Of a stretch of DNA of 41,398 bases, positions 1 to 25,840 are shown piece by piece (position 1 is the first letter of the stretch; each line of letters starts with the position of its first letter). This DNA comes from a virus. The notes under the pieces were generated by a model, which did no database searches, was not told the DNA's origin, and worked only from the letters and a program-made list of their open reading frames with translations. A program made the position numbers and the translations under genes. The stretch lies in the IMG/VR virus record IMGVR_UViG_3300032356_000004, positions 1 through 41,398 of that record; one strand, 5' to 3'.

Positions 1-127
1 CTCTTTCTGGTTTACGCATGCTAGATGGTATGAACTCGTCCTCTTCAACATTCCCATCTAATAATTCACCTGCTACGGCTCCGTCAATTATCAACAAACC
101 CTTTATTATGCAATACCTGTATATTGA
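1..127. repeat. Terminal direct repeat, left copy (contig circularisation overlap)
   Basis: These 127 bases are identical to the last 127 bases of the window (41272-41398). The reading frame of a tail gene is continuous through the overlap. An exact 127-base overlap is what a de Bruijn assembler with k=127 leaves on a circular contig. The simplest reading is therefore a circular or circularly permuted genome of 41271 bp rather than a biological terminal repeat. Confidence 0.95.
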
Positions 128-6416: not shown

Positions 6417-7253
6417 TTACATTGTCATACTTATTATATCTCTACATTCATATTCTAAAACAAAATCAATGGGCTTTACAGGCTGCAATTGCTCAGATAC
6501 TTTCCTTTGCTTGCAATCAATCAATTTTATTAGTGTTCGCAAGTTGCTACAAACATCCAGTATGCCAATATTTATCTCGATATAGCTCTCTGGTTGTGTG
6601 CCACGCATTGGGTTATAAGAGTAGCCATTTCTTGATATTGTTACATTAGCTTTCCTGTTTTTAGCCTTTAATTTAGAAAAAGACCGCATATCTGGCTTGT
6701 TTCTATCTGTAGTATATACGCCCTCTAAACCGTTTGATATGTTTATAGAACATCTATTGAAATCGCCAACTGGCACACCGTTTACAGTCATTTCTATGTG
6801 CGTATTGATATATAATGGCAGGGGAGCAAGCATTGTTGGAATCGCACCATTTATACATCTTTGTGCAATAAACTCATAATTTGCATGAATAAATTGCTCC
6901 TCCGCCATGTCTATAGTACAACTATTACACATGGCACCGATAAACCTTCTAGGCAGGATTCCTCCGACACCAGAAACCGCTACACCTGCATCTATCGTGT
7001 AAGACTTCAACATCATAGCCCAGTTAATAAAAACAATCGGATTGAATGTAGATGTAATCCGACCGTTATATCCTGAAGTCATATAATCTATTTTACTTGG
7101 CACATTAACACCAGGAGGGTAGATGTAATTAAGTTCGTTATCCTCATCAAGACTTCCTCCTAACACTATGCCAAAATGGCTGTTAGGACTTACAGCCGTC
7201 CCGTACACAGATTCCTCACCATATATACAAATCTGCTTGTTACCAGTAAGCAA
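6417..7253 (-). CDS. Tail tube-like structural protein (second of two)
   Basis: This 278-residue protein has an N-terminal motif of the form GEESVYGTAVSP, typical of phage tail tube and major tail proteins, where a short extended N-terminus precedes a beta-sandwich. Later parts are beta-rich, with MTVNGVPVGDFN as a strand-turn-strand candidate. It lies directly after a similar-sized tail tube candidate (14-bp gap) and directly before the G/GT chaperone, the normal site of the major tail protein. One of the two may be the tube subunit and the other a minor tube, tail completion or decorating protein. I cannot decide which. Confidence 0.65.
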   Translation of the reverse strand: MLTGNKQICIYGEESVYGTAVSPNSHFGIVLGGSLDEDNELNYIYPPGVNVPSKIDYMTSGYNGRITSTFNPIVFINWAMMLKSYTIDAGVAVSGVGGILPRRFIGAMCNSCTIDMAEEQFIHANYEFIAQRCINGAIPTMLAPLPLYINTHIEMTVNGVPVGDFNRCSINISNGLEGVYTTDRNKPDMRSFSKLKAKNRKANVTISRNGYSYNPMRGTQPESYIEINIGILDVCSNLRTLIKLIDCKQRKVSEQLQPVKPIDFVLEYECRDIISMTM

Positions 7254-7266: not shown

Positions 7267-8163
7267 TTATGTGATAGTCATTGTTCTAAATTGTATTCCT
7301 ATCTCATACTGCACTATTTCATTAGCATTGTATGACTCGTTAACACTCTTGTAGATACCGTTTCCAAGTGTTATTACTAGAGTCTCTGGACTTGACGCTG
7401 TGCTACATTCATTAACAAAAGTAGCCTCCATTGTAATGTTTCCAGTGGAACAACCGTATCCGCTTTCCTCAAGGTTAATTCCTATTGGTCTTGTGTATGT
7501 CATAACCCTTGCATCAACCTCAAAATTGCCATCTTCAAGCACCTTGGCCGTTCTTTGCTGATTACTAATAGAGTTATCAACACCTTTTCTTGTTATATTG
7601 TTGTTTACTGTAATCTCAAGACTCATCAAATCATTGTCTATAACGCCACCAATCCTTAATGTTAGCCCTGTTCTTTTCCACAGTATCGGATTAGCAATTA
7701 ACTGTTTCTCTATATCAAACCCAGTCGCAGAACCCGCAGGAACTAACCAGCTTTTGAATATCCCATCAAAACTAACTGACAATGGTTCTTCTTCTGGAAC
7801 GTTTATTGTCATCTGATTCCATTTCAAACCAACACCCTTGCCAGAATCTCCTGATTTACCAATAGCAAAGTTATACGAGTTTATTTCTTGGTTCACGTTA
7901 GGTAAAGCTGTCCGCAAAATAGCTTTGCTTGGAGCAACACAATCAACTCTAAGAGTGTTCTCTACTGCACCAGCATATTCGGCTTGTGCGGCTTTTTGAC
8001 CTAATCCATAAATCTTGTTTGTGTCTGTTGACCTGTTCGCTTCAGCAGATGAGACAATTCCAAATACCTGCCAATTCACACTAGGTATTACCTTGCCAAA
8101 TTCGGTTTCTGGTGTTGTGCTAAGCAAACAAACAGCATTTTGACCTGTTACATAGTCTCCCAT
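7267..8163 (-). CDS. Major tail (tube) protein candidate
   Basis: The product is 298 residues and begins with a short segment followed by TTPETEFGKVIPSVNWQ, the kind of N-terminus common in major tail proteins. The rest is beta-rich with few charged helices, including VDNDLMSLEITVNNN-like strands. It starts one base after the tail terminator-like gene and is followed by another tube-like protein. This position fits the major tail protein, which polymerises around the tape measure. The call is from context and general sequence character. Confidence 0.7.
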   Translation of the reverse strand: MGDYVTGQNAVCLLSTTPETEFGKVIPSVNWQVFGIVSSAEANRSTDTNKIYGLGQKAAQAEYAGAVENTLRVDCVAPSKAILRTALPNVNQEINSYNFAIGKSGDSGKGVGLKWNQMTINVPEEEPLSVSFDGIFKSWLVPAGSATGFDIEKQLIANPILWKRTGLTLRIGGVIDNDLMSLEITVNNNITRKGVDNSISNQQRTAKVLEDGNFEVDARVMTYTRPIGINLEESGYGCSTGNITMEATFVNECSTASSPETLVITLGNGIYKSVNESYNANEIVQYEIGIQFRTMTIT

Positions 8164-8609
8164 TATTGCACCTCCCTCTCTCTTTCCATCAATAAAGTAG
8201 TAGAATACCGTATATCACAGAAATGGCAACGCACCAAGCCCTCGCCATCTCCAAACTCTATGTAATCGTTCAGTATCACCTTGGGAGCAGATTGTTGCAA
8301 ACAAGGCAAACTAATTCTCAACGTATCTTTTACTTCCTGCATCTTGCTCAAGAAAAACTTTTCTGAATTGCAATCATAATTGATTGGGAAAAACCCTTTT
8401 ATGCTCCAATCATACCTTACTTGGTCATGTGTAAGTGTAGATTTTATAATCTCATCAGATACAAACTTGACCGTCCAATAACACACAGGGTTATCAAGCT
8501 GCCAAGATATATTTGCTACTCCGCCTTCTTGCTCATCTATTATTCCTAAGTTGGCCTCTCTTAGGACTTCGCTAATCGCTTCAAGCATATCTACATAGGT
8601 TACTATCAT
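8163..8609 (-). CDS. Tail terminator-like / tail completion protein
   Basis: This 148-residue protein has an N-terminal helix (MLEAISEVLREA) followed by alternating strands, the pattern of gpU and SPP1 gp17-like tail terminators. It sits between the HK97 gp10-like gene, overlapping it by 4 bases, and the major tail protein, exactly where siphophages place the tail terminator. It would cap the tail tube and dock it to the head connector. No signature residue proves this, so it is inferred from size, fold pattern and order. Confidence 0.6.
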   Translation of the reverse strand: MIVTYVDMLEAISEVLREANLGIIDEQEGGVANISWQLDNPVCYWTVKFVSDEIIKSTLTHDQVRYDWSIKGFFPINYDCNSEKFFLSKMQEVKDTLRISLPCLQQSAPKVILNDYIEFGDGEGLVRCHFCDIRYSTTLLMEREREVQ

Positions 8610-9142
8610 ATTTTTGCCTTGTTTATCCCTGCTACCATAGCTCTGAATATGTTATCTCGTTCAGCGTTGAATGGTTTAAGCATATAATATTGAGCATTTA
8701 TACCTTGTGATTTTATCTTTCTTCTTATCAAAAAAGTCTTTCTTTCCAAATCTTTCAATCCGTCATGCGGTATCTTTCGTTTAACCCACTTCCTTAATTT
8801 TGCATAAGGAGGCATCATTCGCTGTCCCCGTGTGCCTTTTTCAACATATACACCATAAGGAGCTGTTTGTTTAATAAAAATCCTGCCTGATGCTTTATCG
8901 CTTGAGTTATCAAAGCTGGTTTTCTCGCCTATGCTTTTTCTTAAAATACCATAAACACCAATCGGAGCAGCTACTTGTATCTTACCTTTAATCAGCATTG
9001 TATATGAAGATACGACCCTCTCCATCTCTTTGTTAATGTTATCTGAACCTCTTAGCCATAACCGTCTTAATGCAGGTGATACAGATACACTAACATTGTA
9101 ACTTGCCTGTGATAACGGTGTCCGATTGCTATACCAAGCCAT
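8606..9142 (-). CDS. HK97 gp10-like head-tail/tail completion protein
   Basis: This 178-residue protein carries the recognisable HK97 gp10 family core. A helix is followed by APIGVYGILRKSI, then APYGVYVEKGTRGQRMMPP and a basic helix KLRKWVKRK. The family joins the head completion proteins to the tail during assembly. The family is usually about 120-150 residues. The extra length is mainly an N-terminal extension of about 30 residues and a basic C-terminus. It overlaps its neighbours by 1 and 4 bases, so translation is probably coupled. Confidence 0.8.
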   Translation of the reverse strand: MAWYSNRTPLSQASYNVSVSVSPALRRLWLRGSDNINKEMERVVSSYTMLIKGKIQVAAPIGVYGILRKSIGEKTSFDNSSDKASGRIFIKQTAPYGVYVEKGTRGQRMMPPYAKLRKWVKRKIPHDGLKDLERKTFLIRRKIKSQGINAQYYMLKPFNAERDNIFRAMVAGINKAKI

Positions 9143-10071
9143 TACACATCACTCCATCTTGCAAATACCGCTTTGCCACGAGAAGAAAGTAGTTTTAATG
9201 CTTGCTGTCTATACATGTCAGCCATTTTCCTGAAATCGCTAGACCTCATATCAAAGTTTACTACTTCTGCTCCTATTTGTCTATTAGAGTTATGGGAATA
9301 TCCAGTTGCAATGTGAGTGCATGCGTAACTAGCACATAACATCGCAAATGGTGTTATCTTGTTGTTTGGTATATCTTCACAAGTATAAGGAACTGTATAA
9401 TAAAAAGATAATACATCACCTGTTCTTGGAGCAAAGTTAGATAGTGTTATATATCTACCAACTGACACATTGGAATAACCAACTTCCTCAGATTCGCCGT
9501 TTCTAGTCCAGTATGCTTTTGTGAAATTGCTTACGCCCTCTACCCAATCATCTGGTAAAGCATAATTATATATTCCTGATGTAACAGTTATTTCCTTTAC
9601 AACTTCTTTTGGTTCTATCTTTGAGTATTCGCTTAGAGCTTGCTCTAACGCTACCTCGTATAATTCGTGTCTCAAAAACTCGGTTGCTGTATTTGTTGTA
9701 GGTATAACACTTCCTGTGCTTGTGTATTCTCCTAGCACGAACTGGCTGGAAGCATTTTGAGTTATGCTTGCTTCGCCCTGCAAAGTATAATCATCAGTCC
9801 CAACAGAAGCATATACTCTGAACCTTATAGCATTTTTCACCCTGCCAATGTTTATTTTTATGGCTTTACCACTAGCCGCTATTGTTGAAGATACATGCGC
9901 TCCGCCTGTTGTCTCGCCAAACAAAGACACACTTGTAACCTTGATCTTGTAAGTTCCGTTAGCAAGTCCTGGACCTGTAACGTTTTCTTGCTGCAATCGC
10001 AGTACTGGGTTTTCAACAATATCATTTATAAGCAGCTTTGTTTTATCCACAATATTAATACAGTTAGTCAT
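9142..10071 (-). CDS. Head-tail connector/adaptor protein with inserted Ig-like domain
   Basis: This is a 309-residue protein. Its C-terminal half, roughly residues 130-309, alternates beta strands and helices and resembles phage adaptor proteins (gp6/gp15 type). It includes ITPFAMLCASYACTHIATGY and a helix ending MYRQQALKLLSSRGKA. Residues about 25-125 look like a fibronectin/Ig-type sandwich, with NGTYKIKVTSVSLFGET and IRFRVYASVGTDDYTLQGE. Such surface Ig-like domains are common in virion proteins and may bind host surface glycans. The adaptor call follows from position between capsid genes and the gp10-like protein. Confidence 0.6.
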   Translation of the reverse strand: MTNCINIVDKTKLLINDIVENPVLRLQQENVTGPGLANGTYKIKVTSVSLFGETTGGAHVSSTIAASGKAIKINIGRVKNAIRFRVYASVGTDDYTLQGEASITQNASSQFVLGEYTSTGSVIPTTNTATEFLRHELYEVALEQALSEYSKIEPKEVVKEITVTSGIYNYALPDDWVEGVSNFTKAYWTRNGESEEVGYSNVSVGRYITLSNFAPRTGDVLSFYYTVPYTCEDIPNNKITPFAMLCASYACTHIATGYSHNSNRQIGAEVVNFDMRSSDFRKMADMYRQQALKLLSSRGKAVFARWSDV

Positions 10072-10244: not shown

Positions 10245-12158
10245 TTACTCATTAATTACATTTCTCCTGCCAGTGTACCAAGTGCCTTTTTTCCTACCTT
10301 CTGGCAACGGTAATAATGTGTCATAAAAACCATCATAAAATTCAACAGGACTATCTTTAAACGGATTGCACATAGGGTCACCAACGTAAATCATCGGACC
10401 CCAGTATCTTTCAGCCCAAGCCATTGCCACTGCAAAAGGAATACCGCTTAGATAATACACTACAAAATCACGAACTGGGTTACAACCCCAAGGTTCGCTT
10501 GTAAATCCTATTGCACAAGTTGCTCCATTTTCTCTATCTATTTGACTCCATAAAGTGTTTCCTGTATCCTTAAAATACTTATTCCAGCTTTGCATTGACG
10601 CAGGTTGAGCACTTCCTGACCAAAGTTGAAAATGTACTCCACCATTAGCATAAGAAAGTGAATTAAAATATTTCAAATCTTGCATTCTGTTTGTTCCTGC
10701 AATGTTGTAATTTCCAGCAGGTCGCTTTGGATTATCAGAATCAAACCATACTATCTTACATTTATCACCCGATATATCACAATCAAAATCGTTCGCTGTT
10801 AATTCTGTTCCATCTTCAAGAAAAGCCACATTTATTGTTGTTGAGCCACTTTCACCTATAAATGGTGAAATATTAGGTAAATCAAATTCGTCTGTATTGT
10901 CTTCGCCTCTAATTACTAAGCATTTTATATAACCCCTTAACACTATAGGTGAGGCTGGCATTTCTGAAATGTTCCACTGAATTGTGTGATTATTAATTTT
11001 AGTAACTTTGTATGTTCTGTTACCAGTATAAATAGTAGGAGTAGCTCCCCTGAGTTGTGGATATATATAATTATCGTCAAATGATTCTACATCACCATCT
11101 CTTACACCTGTGATATTAGCATATAACCCATATCTTCTTTTGTCTGCTTTTTTCATATAGAGAGAATGACTAAAATGGATAATATTGTTTACGCCAAGCC
11201 CTGTATAAACAGTATTAGCTTCCGTTGTTGAGTTTGGCTGAATAACAATATCTAAACCAGCATTGTTAAAATTAGATTTGTTAAGCATGAAGTTTGGTGC
11301 TGTGTCACTTCGGAAAAACGGAGGATTAACAGGAAACATTTTGTATAAACCTAACCCCCCTATATCACGGTACCAGTTGTCGTCAAGCGTAACTTGAATT
11401 TTTGGTGTCTCGTTTGGAATACCGTTATCAGCTAATTTGCTTTTATTAATCATTCTTTTTACTTCATCTAAATTGTTGCCAGTGAGATGGGTTGTATACA
11501 TAATTATACTATTTATCAATTTATCATCTATCATTTTTAATAAACTGATTTTTTCCTTGAGTGTTAGTATTTGGTTAAACAACAAATTATTAATAGGAGA
11601 ATTATATAATTGGTGGTTGTAAACTTTTCTTCCTACTATATTTTTTCCTAAATATCCAACATGTAGCCAACTTGAAAATATTCCGTTGGTTGCAAATTCC
11701 CAAAACTCAAAAGGTATATCTGAAGAAAACACAACGTAATATGGTTCCGATAAACTCCATTCCATTTCAGATATTTTATTCATGACAGGCTGATATATTT
11801 TTGTGTTTACATAATTACTTTTTTGTTCTGAAGTAAAACCGCTAGGCTTGTAAATATAATTTGACCACCCATCAACCAGTTCACCGTCCTCATTGTAATA
11901 AGCATTATTAAATGGTAAATCGACAGGCACGTCAACAATAGTTATATCATCACCACGAACACTTTTATAATACTCCATTATTTGTTTAGAAAATCCCCGA
12001 TTAACAGTATTATCACTGTTTTGATTCCAAACAAATATTAGTTTATGAGGTATATAATCATCTAAATTTATCTCTTGATAATTTAAGTTATAATAAACAT
12101 CCGCTGGCGTCAGGTACAACGCCCCTCGGTTAAGTGGGAAGTTAATCGGTATTGTCAT
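10245..12158 (-). CDS. TIGR03790-like protein in the virion gene cluster
   Basis: The 637-residue product shows the two end signatures I associate with TIGR03790. Near the N-terminus (residues about 38-80), LIFVWNQNSDNTVNRGFSKQ is followed by a helix, EYYKSVRG and a strand with DVPVD. Near the C-terminus (about 548-600), a SEPWG-type motif is followed by SGIPFAVAMAWAERYWG and VGDPMCNPF, matching the family ending of the form VGDPLYRPF. Between them, PYYVVFSSDIPFEFW resembles the family's central strand. The family is uncharacterised and distantly reminds of caspase/gingipain-like folds. I see no clear His-Cys catalytic pair. It lies between the beta-helix protein and the connector, so it is probably virion-associated or an assembly factor. 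Family assignment is from memory. Confidence 0.6.
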   Translation of the reverse strand: MTIPINFPLNRGALYLTPADVYYNLNYQEINLDDYIPHKLIFVWNQNSDNTVNRGFSKQIMEYYKSVRGDDITIVDVPVDLPFNNAYYNEDGELVDGWSNYIYKPSGFTSEQKSNYVNTKIYQPVMNKISEMEWSLSEPYYVVFSSDIPFEFWEFATNGIFSSWLHVGYLGKNIVGRKVYNHQLYNSPINNLLFNQILTLKEKISLLKMIDDKLINSIIMYTTHLTGNNLDEVKRMINKSKLADNGIPNETPKIQVTLDDNWYRDIGGLGLYKMFPVNPPFFRSDTAPNFMLNKSNFNNAGLDIVIQPNSTTEANTVYTGLGVNNIIHFSHSLYMKKADKRRYGLYANITGVRDGDVESFDDNYIYPQLRGATPTIYTGNRTYKVTKINNHTIQWNISEMPASPIVLRGYIKCLVIRGEDNTDEFDLPNISPFIGESGSTTINVAFLEDGTELTANDFDCDISGDKCKIVWFDSDNPKRPAGNYNIAGTNRMQDLKYFNSLSYANGGVHFQLWSGSAQPASMQSWNKYFKDTGNTLWSQIDRENGATCAIGFTSEPWGCNPVRDFVVYYLSGIPFAVAMAWAERYWGPMIYVGDPMCNPFKDSPVEFYDGFYDTLLPLPEGRKKGTWYTGRRNVINE

Positions 12159-12162: not shown

Positions 12163-14097
12163 CTACACCACCGCTGATGTTATTGTCTCGACTGAGCCGT
12201 TTGGTAGCTTAATTTTTAATTTGCCACCTTCTAGATATAGATACACCTGTCCTGTAGGTGGGTTGCCTGTAGGTAATGTACCTGTAAGCCTTATCACAGG
12301 AACGGGAGCACCGTCTAAAACCTCATCAGGATCTCCTGTTAGAGCAAAATACGTTACTGTATAAGTAGCTCCAGTATTTAAATTAGCTCCTGCATGCCAC
12401 TCTGCTGTTGTTCCTGTTGTTTTTTCAATACCCCACGCACCAGCATCGGGGTTTTCTATTATCTCGATAGGAGTAATTCCCATTAAACTACCAGCCCCCC
12501 AAACTGGTGTTTGTGATAATCCTGTCATAGTATATTTATTATTAGCAAATGTAACGGTTTTATTTGTGTCTATAACTTCAGCAATAGTTTTGTAAGTTAC
12601 TTTTTTGTAAACAGAGTTTGGAGAAATGAAGACTCTTCTTGTCGCTGTATCCCAAATGTTAATATTATGGTAGTCAGTTATTAAATTAAACGTAACGGTT
12701 GACACCATGTTATAATATAAATTAACATTAGAAGTATCTTGGTAAAGAGTGTTATTCCATAATTTTAAGGTATTATGGTTTAACGGGCTTGTCGAGCCTA
12801 TATACAAGTTCATATCACCATGGAAAGTAGAATTCACAATTACACATGAATGTTTCCTTGAATTAAAGCCTCCTCCACCTAATGTCATACCAATCTTAGA
12901 GTATTTTGTACCAAATATACATCCTGAAATTCTAGCTAAACCTGCATAGATAGGAACATCAATAATAGAGTTTGTTATTTCCAGTATATTAGCACCATCA
13001 CCTTCCAAGCATAAAAACGCTGACTTTGCATTTGAAGTTGGTATTATAGAAGAGTTAGATATTTTAACTCTTACAGAATCTGATTCACCAATAAAATCCA
13101 GAATTTCTTGTTTTTTTTCTAATTGAAGAATAGAATCCGTTATATGATTTGTAAAAAGTACTAATGATGTCATCGACTGGACTAACCAAACATTTGATAT
13201 ACTTCTACAAAATAATAGTGTGGTATTATTAGTTATTTTTACGTAACCAGTATCATTTCCATCCACTGATACAACGCCTGTCTCATCAACAATCACAGAG
13301 GGGACTGCAGCTAATCCTTGTATAAACCCTAATCTCTTATTAACATTCAAAGTGTATTCACCTGGTTCTAATAACACACCAGAACCATTAGGTATGCTAT
13401 TAACAGCATCGTCTAATGTTAAGAAGTTAGCTTGACTTGAAGCACCAACCCTTACAACTGAGAATTGAGCAGATGCTCCAGCACCTGTTACAGTTCCTAA
13501 TACTGTTATACCACTGATTCCACCATTAGATTCAATAACCACATTACCATCAATTTTTACAGATGTAGAATCTCTACCCCAAAGGGTTACACCAGCAGGT
13601 ATTGTCAAAACTCCATTATTAGTTAATATTTCATGTATTCCGTTGTAAAGTTCTACAAATACTCTGTTATTTGCAGTTGCACCTTTAGCAACTGCCAAAT
13701 CCACCGCAGCCTGCACACTCTCGCCAGCCCTGACTATGATTGTGTTTGGGTCGGAGTCTTGCAAACCAATCATCAACTCAAACTCAGTTGCTGTTATTGC
13801 AACACCAAGTTGAACACTTCCAGATGCACTTACTGCACCTGCGTTGCCAAGATAGAGTTTCTGCCCCACTGTAAGACCAGAAAGCCCACCAACTACACCC
13901 TCTGTAACAATCTCTACCCTGCCGTTTGCAGCAGCCCTCGAATTCGCTATACCTATAACTTCTTTCTTTGTAACATCTGTATTATCAGCCTTATATATCT
14001 TTGCATCTTTTATGCAAACAACATCGCCGATATCAATAGCCTCACCAGCTATTATGGATTTCCCCAATCCTTTAGATTTCTTAACTACAAATGGCAT
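12163..14097 (-). CDS. Capsid decoration (DUF2190-like) domain fused to a right-handed beta-helix
   Basis: Residues 1 to about 115 of this 644-residue protein read like a small phage decoration protein: AGEAIDIGDVVCIKDAKIYKA, then VIGIANSRA, then VGQKLYLG. This parallels the stand-alone decoration protein at 14912-15316. From about residue 120 it becomes a pectate-lyase-type parallel beta-helix (SVQAAVDLAVAKGA, PAGVTLWGRDSTSV, then many short Asn/Ser/Val-rich rungs). A C-terminal stretch near 590-644 (GQVYLYLEGGKLKIKLP) may be a trimerisation or binding module. I infer a fibre or spike anchored to the capsid surface, with possible polysaccharide binding or cleavage. No catalytic triad is identified. 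Confidence 0.65.
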   Translation of the reverse strand: MPFVVKKSKGLGKSIIAGEAIDIGDVVCIKDAKIYKADNTDVTKKEVIGIANSRAAANGRVEIVTEGVVGGLSGLTVGQKLYLGNAGAVSASGSVQLGVAITATEFELMIGLQDSDPNTIIVRAGESVQAAVDLAVAKGATANNRVFVELYNGIHEILTNNGVLTIPAGVTLWGRDSTSVKIDGNVVIESNGGISGITVLGTVTGAGASAQFSVVRVGASSQANFLTLDDAVNSIPNGSGVLLEPGEYTLNVNKRLGFIQGLAAVPSVIVDETGVVSVDGNDTGYVKITNNTTLLFCRSISNVWLVQSMTSLVLFTNHITDSILQLEKKQEILDFIGESDSVRVKISNSSIIPTSNAKSAFLCLEGDGANILEITNSIIDVPIYAGLARISGCIFGTKYSKIGMTLGGGGFNSRKHSCVIVNSTFHGDMNLYIGSTSPLNHNTLKLWNNTLYQDTSNVNLYYNMVSTVTFNLITDYHNINIWDTATRRVFISPNSVYKKVTYKTIAEVIDTNKTVTFANNKYTMTGLSQTPVWGAGSLMGITPIEIIENPDAGAWGIEKTTGTTAEWHAGANLNTGATYTVTYFALTGDPDEVLDGAPVPVIRLTGTLPTGNPPTGQVYLYLEGGKLKIKLPNGSVETITSAVV

Positions 14098-14115: not shown

Positions 14116-14907
14116 TTATAAAATCGGTATCATTACACATCCACAATTTATTACATTTCTAGCCGAGCCGTTCGGATCAGAAGGAAACATTAACTTCTCA
14201 CCATCAACTATAAACGGCTCATCAAATCTTACTGTTTGACCGCTTGCTGCCATATGAGATGGTCTAGGTTGATAACTTCCGCCCAATGCTCCAGTATGAA
14301 CCCACATCTTCTTTAAGTTAGGGTAAATACTGCCTTGTTTTAATATCTCGTTATACTCAGCCATATTTAGTATTGTAGAGTATTCTGTTCTTACTATGGT
14401 AGTTATCCGCTTATTGTATTTAAGCAATACACCATTATTTAAATCTGCTAACTCAGATACTAAATCATCTGGTCTTACACCTGTTATTATAGCACGTTTG
14501 ACCCTCTTTGCTATGTCGTTTCTTATGTCATCTGTTATGTTTCTTATAAGTTCTGCCCTGTAACTATCAAGCACATTAGAAAGCTCAGATGTTGAGTCTA
14601 TAGACGGAAGCATAATCGGAACAGATGACACCCTTCCAATCACACTACCTACACTCTTTATGTTCGACTGCTCCAGCATGAATGTGTTAATTAAATCTAC
14701 ACGCATAGCCTTAATTAACTCGTCCAGCTTATCTATGATTATATAATTATTAATCGGATTCCACTCTTTAGACGAGCTACCTAACATTGATAGTATTGCA
14801 AGCAGGTGTTTACTAAAAACACCTGCTATTACTAAACTAAAGCTAGATAGCCCGTCCTGAATCTTTTCAACAAGCTCTTTGGTTTTACTTTCAAGCTCGT
14901 TATTCAT
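14116..14907 (-). CDS. Phage Mu gpF-like minor head protein
   Basis: Starting at ATG 14907 the product is 263 residues. An AGGTG site lies 9 nt upstream, and the longer frame would overlap the decoration gene. The second half has the MuF family signature: helical TTIVRTEYSTILNMAEYNE, then MWVHTGALG, PRPSHMAASGQ and a closing INCGCVMIPIL. Family members bind the portal, sit inside or at the vertex of the head and can be ejected. The first 100 residues are helical. It is unusual that it lies after the capsid and decoration genes rather than directly after the portal. Confidence 0.85.
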   Translation of the reverse strand: MNNELESKTKELVEKIQDGLSSFSLVIAGVFSKHLLAILSMLGSSSKEWNPINNYIIIDKLDELIKAMRVDLINTFMLEQSNIKSVGSVIGRVSSVPIMLPSIDSTSELSNVLDSYRAELIRNITDDIRNDIAKRVKRAIITGVRPDDLVSELADLNNGVLLKYNKRITTIVRTEYSTILNMAEYNEILKQGSIYPNLKKMWVHTGALGGSYQPRPSHMAASGQTVRFDEPFIVDGEKLMFPSDPNGSARNVINCGCVMIPIL

Positions 14908-14911
14908 TTGT

Positions 14912-15316
14912 TTATGCACCTGCCCTGAATTGACCGCTGCCAAAGTTGTAATGAATATCAGTAGCATTAACAGCTACTCCGATTACTTGCACGAAATTGT
15001 TGCTACCAGTTGGAGCTGTCTGTGTAACCGCCCCAGCAACTGCAGCACTCAAATAAACCTCGCCGCCTGTTGCCAAAGAAGTTCCTGCATTGGCTATAGT
15101 TGCATCACTACAAACCTCTGGTCTCACATTGGCTAAATCGGCAGTTTTCACACCAGCAGTAACTACGCCCACGGCTGGAGAAGTATCTGCATGGTTGGCT
15201 CTTGCTTTTACCCATTTCCCAGCAGAATTAAGACAAACCACATCACCTACTTCAACAGCAGTATGAGCAAGTGCGGACGGAACTCTCAGTCCTCTATGTT
15301 TCACATATTTTCCCAT
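14912..15316 (-). CDS. Capsid decoration/stabilisation protein (DUF2190-like)
   Basis: This is a 134-residue protein with VEVGDVVCLNSAGKW, SPAVGVVTAG, TGGEVYLSAA and VQVIGVAVNATDIHYNF. This is the pattern of small beta-rich DUF2190 decoration proteins that bind the outer surface of HK97-fold capsids. It follows the capsid gene by 18 bases, the usual site. The same layout is found at the N-terminus of the beta-helix protein two genes further on, so this phage probably carries two decoration paralogues. Confidence 0.8.
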   Translation of the reverse strand: MGKYVKHRGLRVPSALAHTAVEVGDVVCLNSAGKWVKARANHADTSPAVGVVTAGVKTADLANVRPEVCSDATIANAGTSLATGGEVYLSAAVAGAVTQTAPTGSNNFVQVIGVAVNATDIHYNFGSGQFRAGA

Positions 15317-15334: not shown

Positions 15335-17353
15335 TTAATTTGCAACGACATGCTTGTAAGCTCCTCTTGGATCAAGAAGAACTACCTCATACTCGTATCT
15401 AACTTTATAAACCATTCTGTCAGCAACAAACATATCGCCAACAAGCGGATTGTCTGCTAACATAATCTCTGGCGTCTCCTTGCCAAACAAGAATGATACT
15501 TCTATCCAATCCATTTCAGATTGTGGTCTAACAAGATACCAGTCTGTTGCATCAGTAAGCCATTTGCTAACAATGATTCTCTCGTTGTTTGCACCAAACA
15601 TGTGATAGATTGGATTATATGTCTCAACACTATTCTTTTGATTAAGACCTATTGCTGTTCCTCTTAAGTCAACAGGAACTATAAGGAGGAAGTCATCACC
15701 ACCGCCAAATCTTTCACCGCTGCCTGGCTCAACCATCTTGTTCATAAGAGTAATTGTTTCATTTATAGCAGTTTCAGAGAGTGCTGCGTTTCCTAAGTTT
15801 CTGTTAGCTACGATTGTTCTATTACTTGAGAAGAATCTGCCTGTTCCACCAGAAGTATGTCCATCCTCACTTGTAGAATAGTTGTCTGCAAATGCAGGGT
15901 TATCATGCAAATTATCTACATAGATTCTCTTTTGCATTGTTCTAGCACAACTTCTGCCAAGGTTGCCAACTATCCTTGATAAACCGTTAAGGTCATCATT
16001 GATAATAGCCCTTCTTGTTATAGGAACAAGTCCACCGTATTGCTTGATAACAAAGTCAACTCTACTGTCTGAATACAGCTCAAGCAATGGGTAATTTTCT
16101 ACATCAGGATACACTTGAGGCATATCGCCAAAGTAGCCTGTATTAACTCTTTTCTGTGATTTGAAATCATAAGACGAACTCACATTACAAAACTTCTTCC
16201 AATCATCATTAACACTAGCATAACCCTTGAGCAGTTTCTTGTTTAAAGCATCCTGCATAACATAAGGAAATGAAGTTATAGAGAACGCAGATTCTTTTGT
16301 CTGGGATTCATTAAGTCTTATTTGACCTGTGAAATCCACATCGCCAGTGAATGCTACATAAGCCTCTTTAAAATCTTTAAACGGTTTTACATCACCAAGC
16401 TCGGTATCTGCACCAACAAACGCCTCAAGAGCTATCCTGAGTCTATCTTGTTTGTCTTGCCCTACATCCACATTGGTATCTTTCCCTTCCTCGTCCTCTA
16501 GTCTGCCTAACATCTTCTTGAAAAGCTGTATTTCAGAAGTAACAGCACTAGCCTCAAAAATCTTACCATCAAAAGCACTTCTTATTTTCTCTTGTGCTTC
16601 AGCAGGTAAATTAGACTCAATCAACATCTCAGCAAGCATTATCTTGCAATTATTCTTTGCAGATTCCTCTTGCAATCGAGCCTCTAGTGTTTCAGTCGTA
16701 AGCCCAGCAGTTTCACTAGGTTTTGTTTCTTCTTCCTTTGGTTTTTCAATAAGGCTCTCTATCTTTTGAGTAAGTGCCTCTACTTTCTCGACCACTGGAG
16801 AAAGTACTTTTTTTGTTTCTTCGGTAATTAAATCTTGCATTTCTTTTTCCATAATTAAACCCTCCTCATCAGAACTTTCAAATATTCGCCCACCAGCCGC
16901 AGGATTAACAACAAAGTCAACTGAGTTTTCTTTACTCTCGACAAAGCTACTAACAACTTTTACTGGCTTCCCGTCCAATATAGCAGCTTTGCTTTTTGCA
17001 TACACACAAACAGAAAGACCCAGCAACTCTTTTTGTTCCAGCGATTCTAACAAATAAGGCTCTGCACTCTTTAAATAGTGCAAATCACCATAAACAACCC
17101 CATTATCATATCGAACATTTTTTACAACATGCGATAGGTTCCTTGGATCAGTTCGGTACTTACCGCCCGATTCATGACCAAAGAAACCGTTTGAGTTTTC
17201 AAATATTTGATACTGATTCTGGAGTAAATCTTCAGAATAATAGTTATTATTCTGACTGACACCTGCTTTTATGAGAACAGCATCTCTAATGACTCTATTC
17301 TCTTTATCCAGTTGACAATTCTCAATTTGGCTTGACTCTCTAAGTAGTTGCAT
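15335..17353 (-). CDS. Fused prohead protease - scaffold - major capsid protein
   Basis: With ATG 17353 the product is 672 residues; upstream in-frame starts at 17380 (TTG) and 17374 (ATG) are also possible. Residues 1 to about 170 look like a gp21/S80-type prohead protease: GHESGG with a candidate His, NLSHVVKNVRYDNGVVYGDL, and LLGLSVCVYAKS with a candidate nucleophile Ser. About 175-330 is an acidic coiled-coil, Glu/Lys-rich scaffold-like region. About 335-672 is an HK97-type capsid protein, with VPITRRAIINDDL, DFLLIVPVDLRG and IIVSKWLTDATDWYLV. The protease would cleave the scaffold and free the capsid subunit. Usually these are two or three genes. Confidence 0.85.
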   Translation of the reverse strand: MQLLRESSQIENCQLDKENRVIRDAVLIKAGVSQNNNYYSEDLLQNQYQIFENSNGFFGHESGGKYRTDPRNLSHVVKNVRYDNGVVYGDLHYLKSAEPYLLESLEQKELLGLSVCVYAKSKAAILDGKPVKVVSSFVESKENSVDFVVNPAAGGRIFESSDEEGLIMEKEMQDLITEETKKVLSPVVEKVEALTQKIESLIEKPKEEETKPSETAGLTTETLEARLQEESAKNNCKIMLAEMLIESNLPAEAQEKIRSAFDGKIFEASAVTSEIQLFKKMLGRLEDEEGKDTNVDVGQDKQDRLRIALEAFVGADTELGDVKPFKDFKEAYVAFTGDVDFTGQIRLNESQTKESAFSITSFPYVMQDALNKKLLKGYASVNDDWKKFCNVSSSYDFKSQKRVNTGYFGDMPQVYPDVENYPLLELYSDSRVDFVIKQYGGLVPITRRAIINDDLNGLSRIVGNLGRSCARTMQKRIYVDNLHDNPAFADNYSTSEDGHTSGGTGRFFSSNRTIVANRNLGNAALSETAINETITLMNKMVEPGSGERFGGGDDFLLIVPVDLRGTAIGLNQKNSVETYNPIYHMFGANNERIIVSKWLTDATDWYLVRPQSEMDWIEVSFLFGKETPEIMLADNPLVGDMFVADRMVYKVRYEYEVVLLDPRGAYKHVVAN

Positions 17354-17579
17354 AATACTTTTTCCCAGTAGCATCAACAACAGCTACCCTGCCATCATCA
17401 AATACTTTTGTGTAGAAAACCCTATCTTCCAGTCCATTGTCTTTTATTAGTTTCGCTATTGCTTTTTTTGCACTAGTTACTATAACAACTTCCTCCTCAA
17501 CAACAGGTTCTTCTACAACTTCTTTTGCTTCTTTTGCTTCAACAACTTCTTCTGCTTTAGTTTCAACTTTTTTAGCCAT
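17340..17579 (-). CDS. Small acidic protein of unknown function in the head module
   Basis: The product is 79 residues. Residues 1-40 are almost only Lys, Glu, Val and Ala in a low-complexity charged run. Residues 40-79 look folded, with KKAIAKLIKDNGL, then short strands VFYTKVFDDGRVAVVDATG. It lies 2 bases after the glycosyltransferase and overlaps the protease-capsid gene. The C-terminal part could be a small beta-hairpin binding module. I do not recognise a family. An assembly co-factor of the prohead is a guess from position. Confidence 0.75.
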   Translation of the reverse strand: MAKKVETKAEEVVEAKEAKEVVEEPVVEEEVVIVTSAKKAIAKLIKDNGLEDRVFYTKVFDDGRVAVVDATGKKYYATT

Positions 17580-17581: not shown

Positions 17582-18442
17582 CTATCTCCCCCTCTTTTTA
17601 CAGTAACTACATCCTGAGCCATTAGATAGTTTCTCGTTTACAGGTATATTAAGCCAAGCCCTCTGAGTTATTATCTTCACGGCTTGGTTCTTATTATCTT
17701 GTTGTTTATACAACTCCAATATATCAGGCTCAAAACAATGCAAACATCTATGTGTCTCGTCAATGTATTGCTTAAAACCTTTTTTCATGCATTCTCTAGC
17801 AAAGGAATAATCCTCGCCTTCTTCAGGATACAAAGATGGTGTATCTAAATAGGAGCATTTCTTAAGTAGCTCTTTTGAAGCTAGATACACTGCACCAGTG
17901 CCTCCTACTTCCACCAATCCATCACCGCAAACATAATGGGGTTTCCATCTATCAGGATTGGAATAAACACCTTTTCTTGGCTTAAAATCCATGCAGTTGC
18001 AAGCATATCTATTGAAGTTGACTGTCCCGCTATTAGATATAGTTGCAGCCACAAAATCCACATTGTGAGCAAGCAAGGTTTTCAATGTGCTAGGTTGAAC
18101 CAATATATCACAGTCACAGAAGAAAGTATAATCAAACTTGTTCTTGATTGCATAATCTCTTATGTATTCCCTTACTAACCTCATTCGGTTTAGAGCATCA
18201 CCACTGCTTGTTCTTGTGTAAGGCTCTAGGTCGCCTGTGTCAATATATTCATAGCCAACACCAGCACCCTCGATTATCTCTTTGGTGTTATCGCTGCTCA
18301 TATTGTTAAAAATGACAAAAGACACATCCAGATGTGATGTGTCCATGCTTTTTATACAATCTATAAAATATGGAAGTATCCAAGCCCGATTATATGTCGG
18401 ACTTGCTATTAAGATTTTGTGCTTTTTTGTCGTCAACTCCAC
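17582..18442 (-). CDS. Family 2-like glycosyltransferase in the head gene module
   Basis: This 286-residue GT-A fold protein starts with KILIASPTYNRAW (residues 9-21), the nucleotide-sugar binding strand and loop of GT2 enzymes. FCDCDIL at 108-114 is a DXD-type metal site. VGGTGAVYLASKELL and EEGEDYSFARECMKKG correspond to acceptor-side motifs, the latter holding the likely catalytic acidic residues. The C-terminus has a Cys pair (GCSYCKKR). The start is GTG at 18442 with GGAG 8 nt upstream, overlapping the portal gene by 53 bases. It could glycosylate a virion protein or the host surface. The acceptor is unknown. Confidence 0.85.
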   Translation of the reverse strand: MELTTKKHKILIASPTYNRAWILPYFIDCIKSMDTSHLDVSFVIFNNMSSDNTKEIIEGAGVGYEYIDTGDLEPYTRTSSGDALNRMRLVREYIRDYAIKNKFDYTFFCDCDILVQPSTLKTLLAHNVDFVAATISNSGTVNFNRYACNCMDFKPRKGVYSNPDRWKPHYVCGDGLVEVGGTGAVYLASKELLKKCSYLDTPSLYPEEGEDYSFARECMKKGFKQYIDETHRCLHCFEPDILELYKQQDNKNQAVKIITQRAWLNIPVNEKLSNGSGCSYCKKRGR

Positions 18443-19910
18443 CTAATCCACTCCTATATAATTTCAAGTAGTCTTGCTGGTCCCTTGCTTTCTGCTCATT
18501 TTTTACTCTATCCTCTAAACCATCTGGCTCATCAATATGTGCCATCTGGTAGAACAGCCGTCTATCAGTGATTGAATCAGTTAATCCAAGTTCCTTACCC
18601 ATTATCAATGCCTGCACCAGCTTCATTAAGGAATTACTTATCTTGTCATTATCAGTTGCGGTCATATCAGGCATTGATATATCAAAACTTCTTTCTTCAG
18701 CAGTCACGTTGGGGATATAACCATGCATTATTGCTTGGTCTATAGCATAATCAACCATGTCTCGTATCATGTGCTTTATTTCCCACTGCAACCTACCAAG
18801 ATGTTTGTATGGAGGTGTATCTGCAACTTCAGCAGTGTTCCTATTCACATCGTCACTGGCTGCTACCCATGTTTCACTAAGACCTGAACCTAACCCTATC
18901 AATTTTCTAACTTGAACCAACAAATCTTTTGTGATGTTAGGGTTGATATTAGGACTCTTAGCTTCCCATGTTTCACTCTCGTTATGAACCATAATTGAGC
19001 CAGGTGATGGTTTTTTGACCATGCCTATCTCAGCTTTCCTCTTCAATAATTCTTCTTCAGTCGCACCCGTAAGAGTAACATCCCATATATGACTGCTCTG
19101 TGCACTTACATTCTTGAACTCATCATAAAATGTGTTGTCATGAGCCTTCATCCAACCAAATTGATGCTCATAAGGAGGTCTGCCTCTGCCAGTTATAAGA
19201 TACTCTTGCCTGAAATAGAACACATCGCCAACCCTGAACCCGTCAACCTCTCTTTCTTCCAGATTGCCAAGCTCCTTGCTGCCGATACTCACCTTATCAA
19301 CACCCTCACGGTATCTAATCACATCTAAAACTTCGCCCTCTTTACCTTCTTTGCCAAAAAGCTCTACTTTTGTAACCACACTATTGTTAAGACTATCAAC
19401 ATAAACCTTATTCAACTCCAAAGAGTCAATATAGGATAGCCTAACCTTGCCAGTCTGTGGGTTTACTCTAGCTCTTAGTAAAAGCTCACCATCAAGACCA
19501 AGCAGCATCTCGGAATAATTGACTATCTGCTTATCGAGGTTATTTATCGGGTCGTTCCAGAACTCATCTATAACTTGAGCAACCAATTTACTGGTCTTTG
19601 CTGTCGCAACAGGTTTTGTCCCATACACATAATCCCCGATTATCTTGACTAACCGTTTGCTTATAGGATTGGTGTAATACAGTGTTCTAGCTTCAAGTTT
19701 GGCGTGTCGGTTCGCATGGCTGTATATCTGGTTAGAGGATATATTATTATACAGCAAAGCAGTTTCTGTGTTTCCACTCAAAGAAGCTTCTAGCAACCGC
19801 TTCGATCTAAGAATATCGTTTATCGCCTCTATTTTTGACTCATAAGCAGCTCGCTCAGACTCAAAACGGCTATCAATATAACTATCAATTTTATCCTTTA
19901 GCCACCCCAT
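18390..19910 (-). CDS. Portal protein
   Basis: The 506-residue product has the layout of SPP1/HK97-type portals. A helical N-terminus is followed by NPISKRLVKIIGDYVYGTKP, a strand-rich body with LGLDGELLLRARVNPQTGK, and HQFGWMKAHDNTFYDEF. The long stem/crown helices contain LVQVRKLIGLGSGLSE. The dodecameric portal forms the DNA entry channel and binds terminase. It sits directly after the large terminase gene with a 13-base overlap. A charged, Gln/Asp-rich C-terminus overlaps the glycosyltransferase. Confidence 0.92.
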   Translation of the reverse strand: MGWLKDKIDSYIDSRFESERAAYESKIEAINDILRSKRLLEASLSGNTETALLYNNISSNQIYSHANRHAKLEARTLYYTNPISKRLVKIIGDYVYGTKPVATAKTSKLVAQVIDEFWNDPINNLDKQIVNYSEMLLGLDGELLLRARVNPQTGKVRLSYIDSLELNKVYVDSLNNSVVTKVELFGKEGKEGEVLDVIRYREGVDKVSIGSKELGNLEEREVDGFRVGDVFYFRQEYLITGRGRPPYEHQFGWMKAHDNTFYDEFKNVSAQSSHIWDVTLTGATEEELLKRKAEIGMVKKPSPGSIMVHNESETWEAKSPNINPNITKDLLVQVRKLIGLGSGLSETWVAASDDVNRNTAEVADTPPYKHLGRLQWEIKHMIRDMVDYAIDQAIMHGYIPNVTAEERSFDISMPDMTATDNDKISNSLMKLVQALIMGKELGLTDSITDRRLFYQMAHIDEPDGLEDRVKNEQKARDQQDYLKLYRSGLGGVDDKKAQNLNSKSDI

Positions 19911-21310
19911 AAATTATTCACCGCCTCTGCTTGATTAATATAGCCACCATCCCATACATCATCGCTTGCCTCTAAAATAACACCTGCTGGCTTCGGTGTC
20001 AACCCTGTAAAGAAACATAAAACTAACGCATCTGCTCTATCTGGTGAATCATTTAAATCTTCTTTCCGCTCAAGGACGATTTTTCCCTTCGGGTTGATGG
20101 TATATCCTCTTGTGGAAAGCTGACCCACAAGCATCTCATCATCCATAGGCAGCTTAATCATCCTGTCCCTGAGCATGTTTCTCACATTATCCCACATTAC
20201 ACCAGAAAGATACAAGTAGTTATCATTGCCGCTTCCACCAAAGTTTATAGGACATACTTGTGTAGTCGTTCCCCTTAATCCTTCTTTTATTAAATCAGTC
20301 GCACCTGAAAGACCAGTATCGTCAATCATGATGGCTTTTGCGTTATATTTTTTAGCTTCCAGTATCACCCTGTTGGCAAGTTCAGGGATAGTCCAAGTCC
20401 TACTTGCTTGCAACGGATAGACCCAGTTGCCTTTTCTTGTGCAAATGACAGATTCGTCCCTACCAATACCTTTGCTCACATCAACCCCGATATATACATC
20501 GCCTTCCGCTAACACATTCTCGTTTGTTACAGCATACTCCACTAAATCAAGAGTGATAAAACTATCTGTTCCCAACTTAGGAAACTCACCAAGCACACGA
20601 ACCCTGTATATATCACTACTCTCGCCCCATTTATCCGCCATCATCTTAGCCCAGCTCTTGGATACCCTCTTGGAATCAAGCGAACTGGCAGTAATCAGAT
20701 GCACCCCTTCCATTGGTTTCTGGAATGTCTTATAGAAGTATCCATCCAACCTTGTAGGGTTGCCTGTCATTATCAGCTGACCGCCCTCGGTAGTCAAAGC
20801 ACCGTCCACAACCTCAAAGAGCGGATCATCAACACCAGAAGCCTCATCAACTATGTATCTAATCTTTGGAGCATGGAATCCTGCAAGGTTCTCTGGTTTC
20901 CTGCAAGATACCGCACTGGCTCGCCAACTCTCCTCAAATCCATTCACACAAACAGATGTAGCAGTCCATTTAAGCATACCCTTCAATATACTCTTATTTA
21001 GCCAAGTTCCTATCTCAGCCCATAACAAGTTCCTAAGCTGGTGACTAGTAGGAGCAGTGCAAGGAACTTTACTGTAAGGAAAACAAGCAAGTGTCTGTAA
21101 GGTTATCCAACTAAGCAAAGCAGTCTTACCAACACCATGACCACTCTTAATAACCACATGCATCCCACTATCCATAGCCCTTAGAGCCTCTATCTGCCAG
21201 TCATCAGGCTCTACCTTCAGTATCTTGCGAACAAACTTAACACTATCACCCTGACACTCAAGCAGTATCTTAGCAGCTTCCTCATTTACATTCCTAGACT
21301 TCTTCTGCAT
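19898..21310 (-). CDS. terL: Terminase large subunit
   Basis: The product is 470 residues, a normal length for this family. The ATPase has Walker A SGHGVGKTALLS (residues 56-67), Walker B IRYIVDEASG (150-159) with the catalytic Glu, and the coupling motif TGNPTR (182-187). The nuclease starts at VYIGVDVSKGIGRDES (272-287) with the first metal-binding Asp. AIMIDDTGLSGA and a late DRADALVL give the remaining acidic residues. It powers DNA packaging and cuts concatemers. It overlaps the small subunit by 17 bases. Confidence 0.96.
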   Translation of the reverse strand: MQKKSRNVNEEAAKILLECQGDSVKFVRKILKVEPDDWQIEALRAMDSGMHVVIKSGHGVGKTALLSWITLQTLACFPYSKVPCTAPTSHQLRNLLWAEIGTWLNKSILKGMLKWTATSVCVNGFEESWRASAVSCRKPENLAGFHAPKIRYIVDEASGVDDPLFEVVDGALTTEGGQLIMTGNPTRLDGYFYKTFQKPMEGVHLITASSLDSKRVSKSWAKMMADKWGESSDIYRVRVLGEFPKLGTDSFITLDLVEYAVTNENVLAEGDVYIGVDVSKGIGRDESVICTRKGNWVYPLQASRTWTIPELANRVILEAKKYNAKAIMIDDTGLSGATDLIKEGLRGTTTQVCPINFGGSGNDNYLYLSGVMWDNVRNMLRDRMIKLPMDDEMLVGQLSTRGYTINPKGKIVLERKEDLNDSPDRADALVLCFFTGLTPKPAGVILEASDDVWDGGYINQAEAVNNLWGG

Positions 21311-21982: not shown

Positions 21983-22238
21983 TTCACAGTTCAAAAATAA
22001 TTCACAAATGCCAGTGAAGCTTAACTTTTTTTTTCTCCCCCAGCAAAACGGATAAAATCATAACACTGCACAATATATATATAATTTGTGAACGAGCTTC
22101 ACGTTACGGAATAAAGTATAAATCAGGGGCCCATGGAGGGAAAAGCGTGAGTTAAGTGAATGTCATAAATTGTGCAGTTTTACCACCGTTAAGTTCAACA
22201 AGCACAAATTAAGCGTGAAATCATTCCTTTTTTGTGAA
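21983..22238. repeat. Cluster of eight GTGAA/TTCAC boxes
   Basis: The pentamer occurs in either orientation at 21983, 22001, 22014, 22088, 22098, 22156, 22215 and 22234. About one would be expected in 256 bases. Some are paired head to head, for example 22001 with 22014 and 22088 with 22098, giving dyads. This suggests binding sites of one protein, either a replication initiator or a late regulator. No binding protein can be assigned. Confidence 0.5.
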
Positions 22239-22553
22239 TTTGCAATTGCATAGAATATGACGAAAAATTAAGGTTAAAGTCATAAAATCTTAAGGGGGAT
22301 TTGAGAATTTAGACCGAGATAAATTTTGGGGTGCCTTCCTATTAAGAACTGCCATTCTGGGGAAGATACGGGGTCTTATACTAAAACACAGATGCTTTAC
22401 TAAAACATAACGCACCATAATGAATATTATGTAAACTGAACATGTGTTCGTATATATAAATTGAACCTGATTTAATGGTGGAATTTAATTAATAATTGTA
22501 TAATTTAATACACAATTTAACTAATACGATTTATATTTTGATTCTGGAGCAAC

Positions 22554-22697
22554 ATGTTTTTTATTCATATAAAAAGTCCTGTTTACGAATTCAAGCCCCT
22601 TCCTGCTGATTCTGTGATTAAAATTATTTTTAGTGATTTTTATAGGTTCAAATTGGTGTTTAATAAAATACTTTATTCTGTGAATTTCTACTTTTAA
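22554..22697 (+). CDS. Weak candidate for a 47-residue plus-strand protein
   Basis: ATG 22554 follows a GGAG by 4 bases and the frame runs to TAA 22697. A TTGAAC box and a TTTAAT box 17 bases apart lie upstream near 22460-22490. The peptide is hydrophobic and aromatic (many Phe, Ile and Tyr) and resembles no family I know. It would be the only plus-strand gene of the genome. In such AT-rich DNA a chance ORF is as likely. Confidence 0.2.
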   Translation: MFFIHIKSPVYEFKPLPADSVIKIIFSDFYRFKLVFNKILYSVNFYF

Positions 22698-22749
22698 GTG
22701 TGTGAAAAGGTGTTATTAACTATCAGCAATCAAGAACATGTTAAACAAC

Positions 22750-22797
22750 TGACAGAATTTGTCAGTGTCAAATTTTGTCACTGTCAGAATTTGTCAG
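22750..22797. repeat. Three tandem 16-bp imperfect repeats (iteron or operator array)
   Basis: Units at 22750-22765, 22766-22781 and 22782-22797 follow the pattern TGwCAgAATTTGTCAG. Units 1 and 3 differ at one base. Unit 1 is a dyad, with TGACA and TGTCA around five bases. Tandem short repeats in an AT-rich gap between transcription units are typical of initiator binding sites or repressor operators. Confidence 0.8.
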
Positions 22798-22844
22798 TAG
22801 AGATATATGTTCATTAGTAGTGAACAAGAATGGGATATAAAAAT

Positions 22845-22870
22845 AGGGGTACAATATTATTTGTACCCCT
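22845..22870 (-). terminator. Intrinsic terminator after the 99-residue protein gene
   Basis: A perfect 10-bp inverted repeat (AGGGGTACAA / TTGTACCCCT) with a 6-base loop lies 16 bases after the stop codon at 22886. On the minus strand it is followed by ATTTTTAT. This is a good rho-independent terminator that isolates the cassette from the late genes. Confidence 0.88.
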
Positions 22871-22885
22871 TGTGTGAGATTGATT

Positions 22886-23185
22886 TTAAATTTCTAAAAT
22901 TGCATTAAAAAGATTAATTGCTTTTATGACTTCTTTAGTCACTTCAGAACTCGCGTTGTTTTTCAATGTTGTGTAAATCTTTCTCAATTCCTCTTTGTTT
23001 TCTTTCTGGTCAACCGCCTTGCTAATCGTCCTTAATGATGCTTTGACCAGTGATGAAATAATTTGATAATCTTCACCAGTCCAATCACTAGTTTTAAATT
23101 GATTTTTTGTAAGTTCTTTGTTTCTCTTGACAACATCACTAATTCTGCTTTTTAAGTTTAATAATTCATTGTTTACTGTTTTCAT
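22886..23185 (-). CDS. Unknown 99-residue helical protein (accessory cassette)
   Basis: This is a basic, mostly helical protein with long Lys/Asn/Leu-rich stretches, for example LLNLKSRISDVVKRNKELTK and KEVIKAINLFNAILEI. It has no Cys cluster and no membrane segment. It may form a small helical bundle. It stands alone between its own promoter (23246-23274) and its own terminator (22845-22870), the classic layout of a moron gene. The region is visibly more AT-rich than the structural genes, suggesting separate acquisition. I do not recognise a family. Anti-defence or host-takeover function is possible but unsupported. Confidence 0.75.
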   Translation of the reverse strand: MKTVNNELLNLKSRISDVVKRNKELTKNQFKTSDWTGEDYQIISSLVKASLRTISKAVDQKENKEELRKIYTTLKNNASSEVTKEVIKAINLFNAILEI

Positions 23186-23245
23186 TTTTATATTCTCTCT
23201 TTTTTAGCAGTATTTATTTACTGCATTAATTTATTTTATAATAGT

Positions 23246-23274
23246 AATATACCCGTATATGTAATTAGAGTCAA
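23246..23274 (-). promoter_or_regulatory. Sigma-70-like promoter of the 99-residue protein cassette
   Basis: The minus strand has TTGACT (23274-23269), 17 bases, then TATATT (23251-23246). The start codon is about 60 bases downstream. The leader holds a small hairpin with arms GCAGTA/TACTGC at 23207-23224. The 40-bp repeat lies 14 bases upstream of the -35 box. Confidence 0.75.
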
Positions 23275-23288
23275 TCAATTAATATTAT

Positions 23289-23328
23289 AATAGCATTAAA
23301 ATACAAAGATGGTATTATATTACCAATT
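23289..23328. repeat. 40-bp perfect direct repeat, copy 1, upstream of a promoter
   Basis: The 40 bases are identical to 25444-25483. Each copy ends 12-14 bases before a TTGACT -35 box, so it covers roughly positions -50 to -90 of the promoter. The same spacing in both copies suggests an activator, repressor or UP-like element. Part of it is a dyad (GGTATTATATTACC). Confidence 0.9.
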
Positions 23329-23480
23329 TAAAATATAAATTGACATATTAACAAATTTATGGCATGAATTAGAAGAGTCAAAAAAGATCATTTAAAATAT
23401 AAATACAAGGAAACAATTAATAAAAACTAGATGCTGAAAATTTTAGTAAACTGTTGTAAATTGGGTATGGGTGTAATATA

Positions 23481-23503
23481 CCTAAGACCGAATTCCAATT
23501 ATA
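23481..23503. repeat. Solitary copy of the 23-bp iteron-like repeat
   Basis: A copy of the unit containing ACCGAATTCCAATT, found in tandem at 25721-25766, lies here. It ends just before the terminator of the 103-residue protein gene. The full 23 bases match the tandem copies, which links the two intergenic regions. Confidence 0.85.
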
Positions 23504-23505
23504 GA

Positions 23506-23540
23506 AAAAAGGGAGTACCAATTTTAGATACTCCCTTTTT
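23506..23540 (-). terminator. Intrinsic terminator after the 103-residue protein gene
   Basis: The arms AAAAAGGGAGTA and TACTCCCTTTTT are perfect over 12 bp with an 11-base loop, 31 bases after the stop codon at 23571. On the minus strand the stem runs into a T tract. The symmetry could allow termination in both directions. Confidence 0.88.
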
Positions 23541-23570
23541 GTGTGTGAGATTAGTCTTAATAGTATTAAT

Positions 23571-23882: not shown

Positions 23883-23968
23883 TTTTATTTACTCCTTTTT
23901 TTATTTAAAACACTTAATAAAAAACTCAAGCGTTTTAACAATTAAATATAAGATAATTAAAGTCATAA

Positions 23969-24490: not shown

Positions 24491-24520
24491 TTTATTTACT
24501 CCTTTTTTTTTAGTGAAAAA

Positions 24521-24540
24521 TGCAGGGAGTTTACTCCCTG
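24521..24540 (-). terminator. Hairpin terminator/attenuator after the 264-residue protein gene
   Basis: A perfect inverted repeat (TGCAGGGAGT / ACTCCCTGCA) closes with a 0-2 base loop directly after the stop codon at 24546. On the minus strand it is followed by TTTTTC. The next two genes have no promoter that I can see, so the hairpin may let part of the transcription read through. Confidence 0.82.
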
Positions 24541-24545
24541 CAGCG

Positions 24546-25431: not shown

Positions 25432-25443
25432 CACACAATATCA

Positions 25444-25829: not shown

Positions 25830-25840
25830 ACAAAAAAAGA

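Follow-up and report, generated by a model that had tools for sequence, protein, structure and literature searches.

A phage structural-operon protein with a C-terminal region resembling the cellular TIGR03790 family

Why should a protein that resembles a cellular family be encoded among the head genes of a phage? The question is raised by a gene at positions 10245 to 12158 of a viral DNA of 41,398 nucleotides (the window, analysed over its whole length). TIGR03790 is an uncharacterised cellular family that occurs mainly in bacteria with exosortase systems, and our literature search found no paper naming it, nor any function for it. An earlier note on this DNA had likened the gene product, here called P0001, to TIGR03790, and had suggested that it may be a virion-borne, peptidase-like or surface-processing protein and a hint at the host group.

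Genome organisation and the P0001 gene

The first and last 127 bases of the window (1 to 127 and 41272 to 41398) are identical and form an exact terminal direct repeat; thus, the phage genome is probably complete, with 41,271 bp. Across these ends, the ORF of a tail protein (2 to 2713) continues into 39851 to 41398, giving a single protein of about 1,377 residues. The structural genes lie on the minus strand in the order small and large terminase, portal, glycosyltransferase-like protein, protease-capsid fusion, small protein, Mu F-like protein, spike, P0001, adaptor-like protein, neck, two tail-tube-like proteins and tape measure. Pfam and PHROG matches identified the neighbours, namely the terminase large subunit (19898 to 21310; phrog_2, E 3e-42), the portal protein (18390 to 19910; phrog_10963, E 1e-18), the prohead protease/major capsid protein fusion (15335 to 17380; Phage_capsid_4, E 4.7e-29; also NF045540, E 3e-41, under its cut-off), the Mu F-like head morphogenesis protein (14116 to 14967; PF04233, E 2.4e-9; phrog_2468, E 2e-34) and the HK97-gp10-like neck or tail-completion protein (8606 to 9142; phrog_5, E 6e-9). 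The probable head-tail adaptor (P0004, 309 residues, 9142 to 10071, minus strand) matched SU10_adaptor at E 0.0074, under the cut-off. The probable capsid spike (P0003, 644 residues, 12163 to 14097, minus strand) has an N-terminal cement-like domain (Phage_cement_2, E 1.8e-4, 22.2 bits, just under the 24-bit cut-off) and then a long repetitive region. P0001 therefore lies inside a phage structural cluster, between the spike and the connector and tail genes; the earlier note had placed it between a capsid spike and connector genes.

P0001 is a real gene. Its ORF of 637 residues, also proposed earlier with the strand unstated, runs from an ATG at 12158 to 10245 on the minus strand only, and the plus strand over this interval is rich in stop codons. 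A ribosome-binding site (GGTGGTG) precedes the ATG, which lies 4 nt past the stop codon of the spike gene. The GC contents at the three codon positions (0.41/0.36/0.25) are coding-like. The third-position value (GC3) of P0001 is close to that of the spike gene (0.24), as opposed to 0.28 to 0.41 in the other head genes, and these two genes may form an accessory module.

Several other genes were recorded along the window. The tail-tube-like genes at 6417 to 7253 and 7267 to 8163 (minus strand) both match PF18906 and are adjacent, an apparent tandem pair. The gene between the portal and capsid genes (17582 to 18442, minus strand) encodes a glycosyltransferase family 2-like protein (PF00535, E 2e-5) with weak similarity to HpsE (E 1.7e-4), possibly serving capsid glycosylation. 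The GC content falls to about 0.25 to 0.28 over the 4 kb at 22001 to 26000, where ORFs of 196 and 267 residues gave no Pfam or NCBIfam match. A radical SAM-like protein at 26144 to 26857 (minus strand), with weak similarity to QueE (E 3e-6, far under the cut-off), is possibly linked to deazaguanine DNA modification. The gene at 27941 to 30424 (minus strand) encodes a protein that resembles primase-polymerases and contains an HBD domain of the NrS-1 type (PF22763, E 6e-24), and genes for RecT, a RecE-like exonuclease and RusA lie nearby.

Similarity of P0001 to TIGR03790

TIGR03790 is an NCBIfam subfamily model of 316 positions, and cellular examples are encoded by Rhizobium gallicum (pRgalIE4872d) and Rhizobium sp. 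WL3 (WP_187182033.1). Among 18,950 NCBIfam models searched with E up to 10, it was the sole match of P0001 (E 0.0098, 15.4 bits). The match covers residues 491 to 578 (10425 to 10688, minus strand) and profile positions 227 to 306, compared to positions 3 to 314 in a true member. With 15.4 bits against a curated cut-off of 67 bits and this partial coverage, P0001 fails formal membership of the family. Furthermore, when the other proteins of the window were scanned, an unrelated tail protein matched an unrelated membrane-protein family at E 0.0077 and 16.1 bits, so that the profile score of P0001 taken alone is at chance level. The probability from hhalign for P0001 and TIGR03790 was 3 to 25%.

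The location of the match is nevertheless informative, since TIGR03790 had been named beforehand and the matched residues overlap neither of the signatures on which it was named (about residues 36 to 75, and 592 to 600). The chance for one pre-named model is 0.0098/18,950, or about 5e-7, a best case because the earlier reader saw the whole sequence, and a figure that holds if the nomination rested on the two signatures alone. The G[D/E]PL..PF motif of the family follows immediately after the end of the TIGR03790 model. In the R. gallicum member, the model matches residues 44 to 334 and LLVGEPLSRPF comes directly after; in a second, informal consensus, the match reaches residue 90 of the consensus, just before MMVLVGDPLYRPFK. 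Projection of the profile end with this spacing predicts that the motif in P0001 should start near residue 593, and VGDPMCNPF, the counterpart of VGEPLSRPF and VGDPLYRPF of the family, indeed begins at residue 592 (residues 592 to 600; 10359 to 10385, minus strand). It lies past the end of the model and thus outside what the profile score counts. The short motif is not rare by itself: a scan of 959 ORFs for the looser pattern G[DE]P[LMIV]..P[FYW] also found it in an unrelated tail ORF (GEPLYFPY) and in one antisense frame.

Alignments with the two Rhizobium members showed that P0001 shares the C-terminal order of the family (GAT..xG...EP...YL.G...VG[D/E]P[L/M]..PF), with GA..xxG, EP and L.G followed by G[D/E]P[L/M]..PF after the model end. 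The C-terminal region of P0001 and the R. gallicum member have 22 of 76 identities in a gapped alignment, with a pairwise p of 0.001 in 3000 shuffles. This member had been retrieved with an informal C-terminal consensus, and the curated model then recognised it with 136 bits. A proxy model placed P0001 at rank 2 of 5001 against 5000 shuffles and on top of the ORFs of the window; this model, like one pairwise test, includes an informal consensus, and it is weaker evidence than the curated model. With the naming of the family in advance, the motif spacing and these alignments taken together, distant homology of the C-terminal domain of P0001 to TIGR03790 is probable.

The N-terminal half, in contrast, shows no statistically supported similarity to the family. 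Its signature, confirmed by inspection like the C-terminal one, consists of a strand (IPHKLIFVWNQNS) and a helix ending in MEYYKSVRG (residues 36 to 69). Sequence and low-confidence single-sequence models suggest that residues 39 to 145 (11724 to 12044, minus strand) comprise a strand, the YY-helix (WNQNS...MEYYKSVRG), a strand, a helix and a strand (YYVVFSSDIPF). The resemblance to a TIGR03790 member in this region (N.N[SD]..[ST]V..G, later Y...RG) was found by eye and gave a p of 0.29 by shuffling, and the profile gave no match with the N-terminus of P0001 alone. At residues 219 to 233 (11460 to 11504, minus strand), P0001 reads MYTTHLTGNNLDEVK, a segment picked by eye, and the matching region of family members presumably carries a TRLDGP...VKR motif. 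Residues 340 to 490 (10689 to 11141, minus strand) form an apparent insertion, probably beta-rich, as judged from the distances between motifs and from a secondary structure predicted with low confidence. The idea that this insertion masks a higher score was rejected, as insert-deleted constructs scored lower (11.2 and 10.9); in one such construct the HMM alignment began at residues 219 to 233 (profile position 138), but the score did not rise. Another construct, whose N-terminus had been shuffled, reached 15.9, as high as native P0001. Together, these scores indicate that the N-terminus adds nothing measurable to the TIGR03790 match. The proposed TIGR03790-likeness is thus supported in part, by the single NCBIfam match on residues 491 to 578 and by VGDPMCNPF at its expected place, while at the N-terminus it lacks statistical support, and the score stays far below the family cut-off.

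P0001 also differs from the cellular proteins in other respects. The R. gallicum member has 443 residues, compared to the 637 of P0001 with its large insertion. P0001 is phage-encoded and has no signal peptide, the highest 15-residue Kyte-Doolittle mean in its first 45 residues being 0.53, whereas the value of 2.24 for the cellular R. gallicum member indicates a hydrophobic leader. This difference suggests that the cellular protein is probably exported and P0001 is not. The TIGR03790 gene of Rhizobium sp. WL3 adjoins polysaccharide export genes, in agreement with a connection of the family to the surface layer.

Structure models and the peptidase question

Single-sequence structure models of whole P0001 and of residues 30 to 345 had mean pLDDT values of 34 and 41, respectively, and a plausible strand-helix-strand order was seen only in about the first 120 of the folded residues. 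Because both models are of low confidence, we did not use fold matches as evidence. A Foldseek search with the latter model gave no match below E 0.001, and the best PDB match had an E of 0.07. The comparison with caspase and gingipain folds that the earlier note had suggested did return C11 peptidases and caspases (6nag, 5dyn, 6kmu and 4fxo), all of them among the non-significant matches.

If P0001 were an active peptidase of the caspase/gingipain type, acting in particle maturation or in digestion of the host surface, it would be expected to have the His/Cys pair of clan CD. The low-confidence model has a possible alpha/beta order in common with clan CD peptidases (C11, C14 and the C25 gingipains), and IIHFSHSLY (residues 326 to 334) resembles, by eye, the His after a strand. 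However, no clan CD His/Cys pair could be identified in P0001 with strands placed by eye, nor did the protein match peptidases among Pfam or PDB sequences. The strand-end segment where the nucleophile would be expected by eye, GGVHFQLWSGSA, has no Cys, and the Rhizobium members read HLTSFGG and HLTSNGG there. A role in capsid maturation was rejected, since a prohead protease is already fused to the capsid protein. Proteolysis by P0001 is therefore not supported, the peptidase-like activity suggested earlier found no backing in these comparisons, and we regard an active peptidase as very unlikely.

Relatives, host and a possible role of P0001

P0001 had no match in Pfam, PHROG, PADLOC or PDB sequences, and none of the known phage fibre, decoration and connector families in PHROGs and Pfam matched it at E 0.1. 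Homologues were not found in phages, plasmids (tblastn), IMG/VR or genome scans, searches of limited sensitivity that were mostly exact-pattern scans from one sequence. An IMG/VR search with P0001, the spike, capsid, terminase and primase returned terminase relatives and one capsid relative only, and the DNA of those examined contained no P0001-like gene. The five terminase relatives found in genome scans were all from Bacillota; about 1,100 genomes chosen with them as starting points yielded nothing real for TIGR03790 or P0001, and of two weak matches, one resembled by eye a membrane protein of the type II secretion type and the other an indolepyruvate-oxidoreductase-like enzyme. The phage belongs to a group without close known relatives. 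The nearest head-module relative found was Microcystis phage Mae-JY22 (PP438414.1), whose portal, capsid/protease fusion, Mu F-like and neck genes are homologous with about 27 to 31% identity, but whose head genes are in a different order and include no counterpart of the spike or of P0001. The best terminase relatives were from Bacillota and their phages, and amidases similar to that of this phage occur in Bacillus, Vibrio and Akkermansia phages. Since the terminase, capsid/portal and amidase relatives point in different directions, no host group can be named, and the expectation that P0001 would hint at one was not borne out.

We considered whether the resemblance to TIGR03790 could be fortuitous, with P0001 being an orphan structural protein such as a second head fibre, a decoration or a neck protein. 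The profile score at the level expected by chance for this many proteins, with an equal false match from the tail protein, is consistent with this, as are an N-terminal similarity no better than that of shuffles and the lack of any phage, plasmid or IMG/VR relative bridging P0001 and the family. On the other hand, the match was to a family named in advance and fell outside the named signatures, the next motif followed at the predicted spacing, and fibre and connector families gave no match, so we consider a fortuitous resemblance rather unlikely. Another explanation is that a TIGR03790-type gene was acquired from a host and is expressed to alter the infected cell without being part of the virion. 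The low GC3 of P0001 compared to most head genes agrees with such an origin, and so does the absence of both spike and P0001 from Mae-JY22, which shares other head genes. Its same-strand position within the structural operon, directly behind a spike gene of similar GC3, and its lack of the leader seen in the cellular protein argue against it, which makes cargo of this kind quite improbable.

We give about even chances to the reading that P0001 is a structural-operon protein with a C-terminal domain descended from TIGR03790, carried in the particle at the surface of its head or neck, where it meets the host envelope. The C-terminal domain (about residues 490 to 605) would share an ancestor with the cellular family, and would be joined to an alpha/beta part at the N-terminus and to a large central insertion that is probably beta-rich. 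The lack of an export signal and the location of the P0001 gene among those for the capsid spike and head completion suggest that it is most likely assembled into the particle beside the spike; judged from gene position and the missing export signal, packaging in the virion is slightly favoured. The head surface is suggested by the capsid-binding cement-like domain of the neighbouring spike. At adsorption, P0001 could then meet the host envelope or a surface polymer as a binding or surface-modifying protein, although an action on the host surface is put forward only tentatively. It is a speculative and rather improbable extension that the phage adopted a member of the exosortase- or polysaccharide-associated TIGR03790 family, so far seen in cells, for display on its capsid, where it would recognise or modify the layer of the host surface that is served by the cellular family.

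If the resemblance were due to chance, P0001 would be another orphan phage structural protein. If P0001 is a particle-carried phage version, it would provide a leaderless form of TIGR03790 suited to purification and assay, and the virus would tie this family to surface-layer biology.
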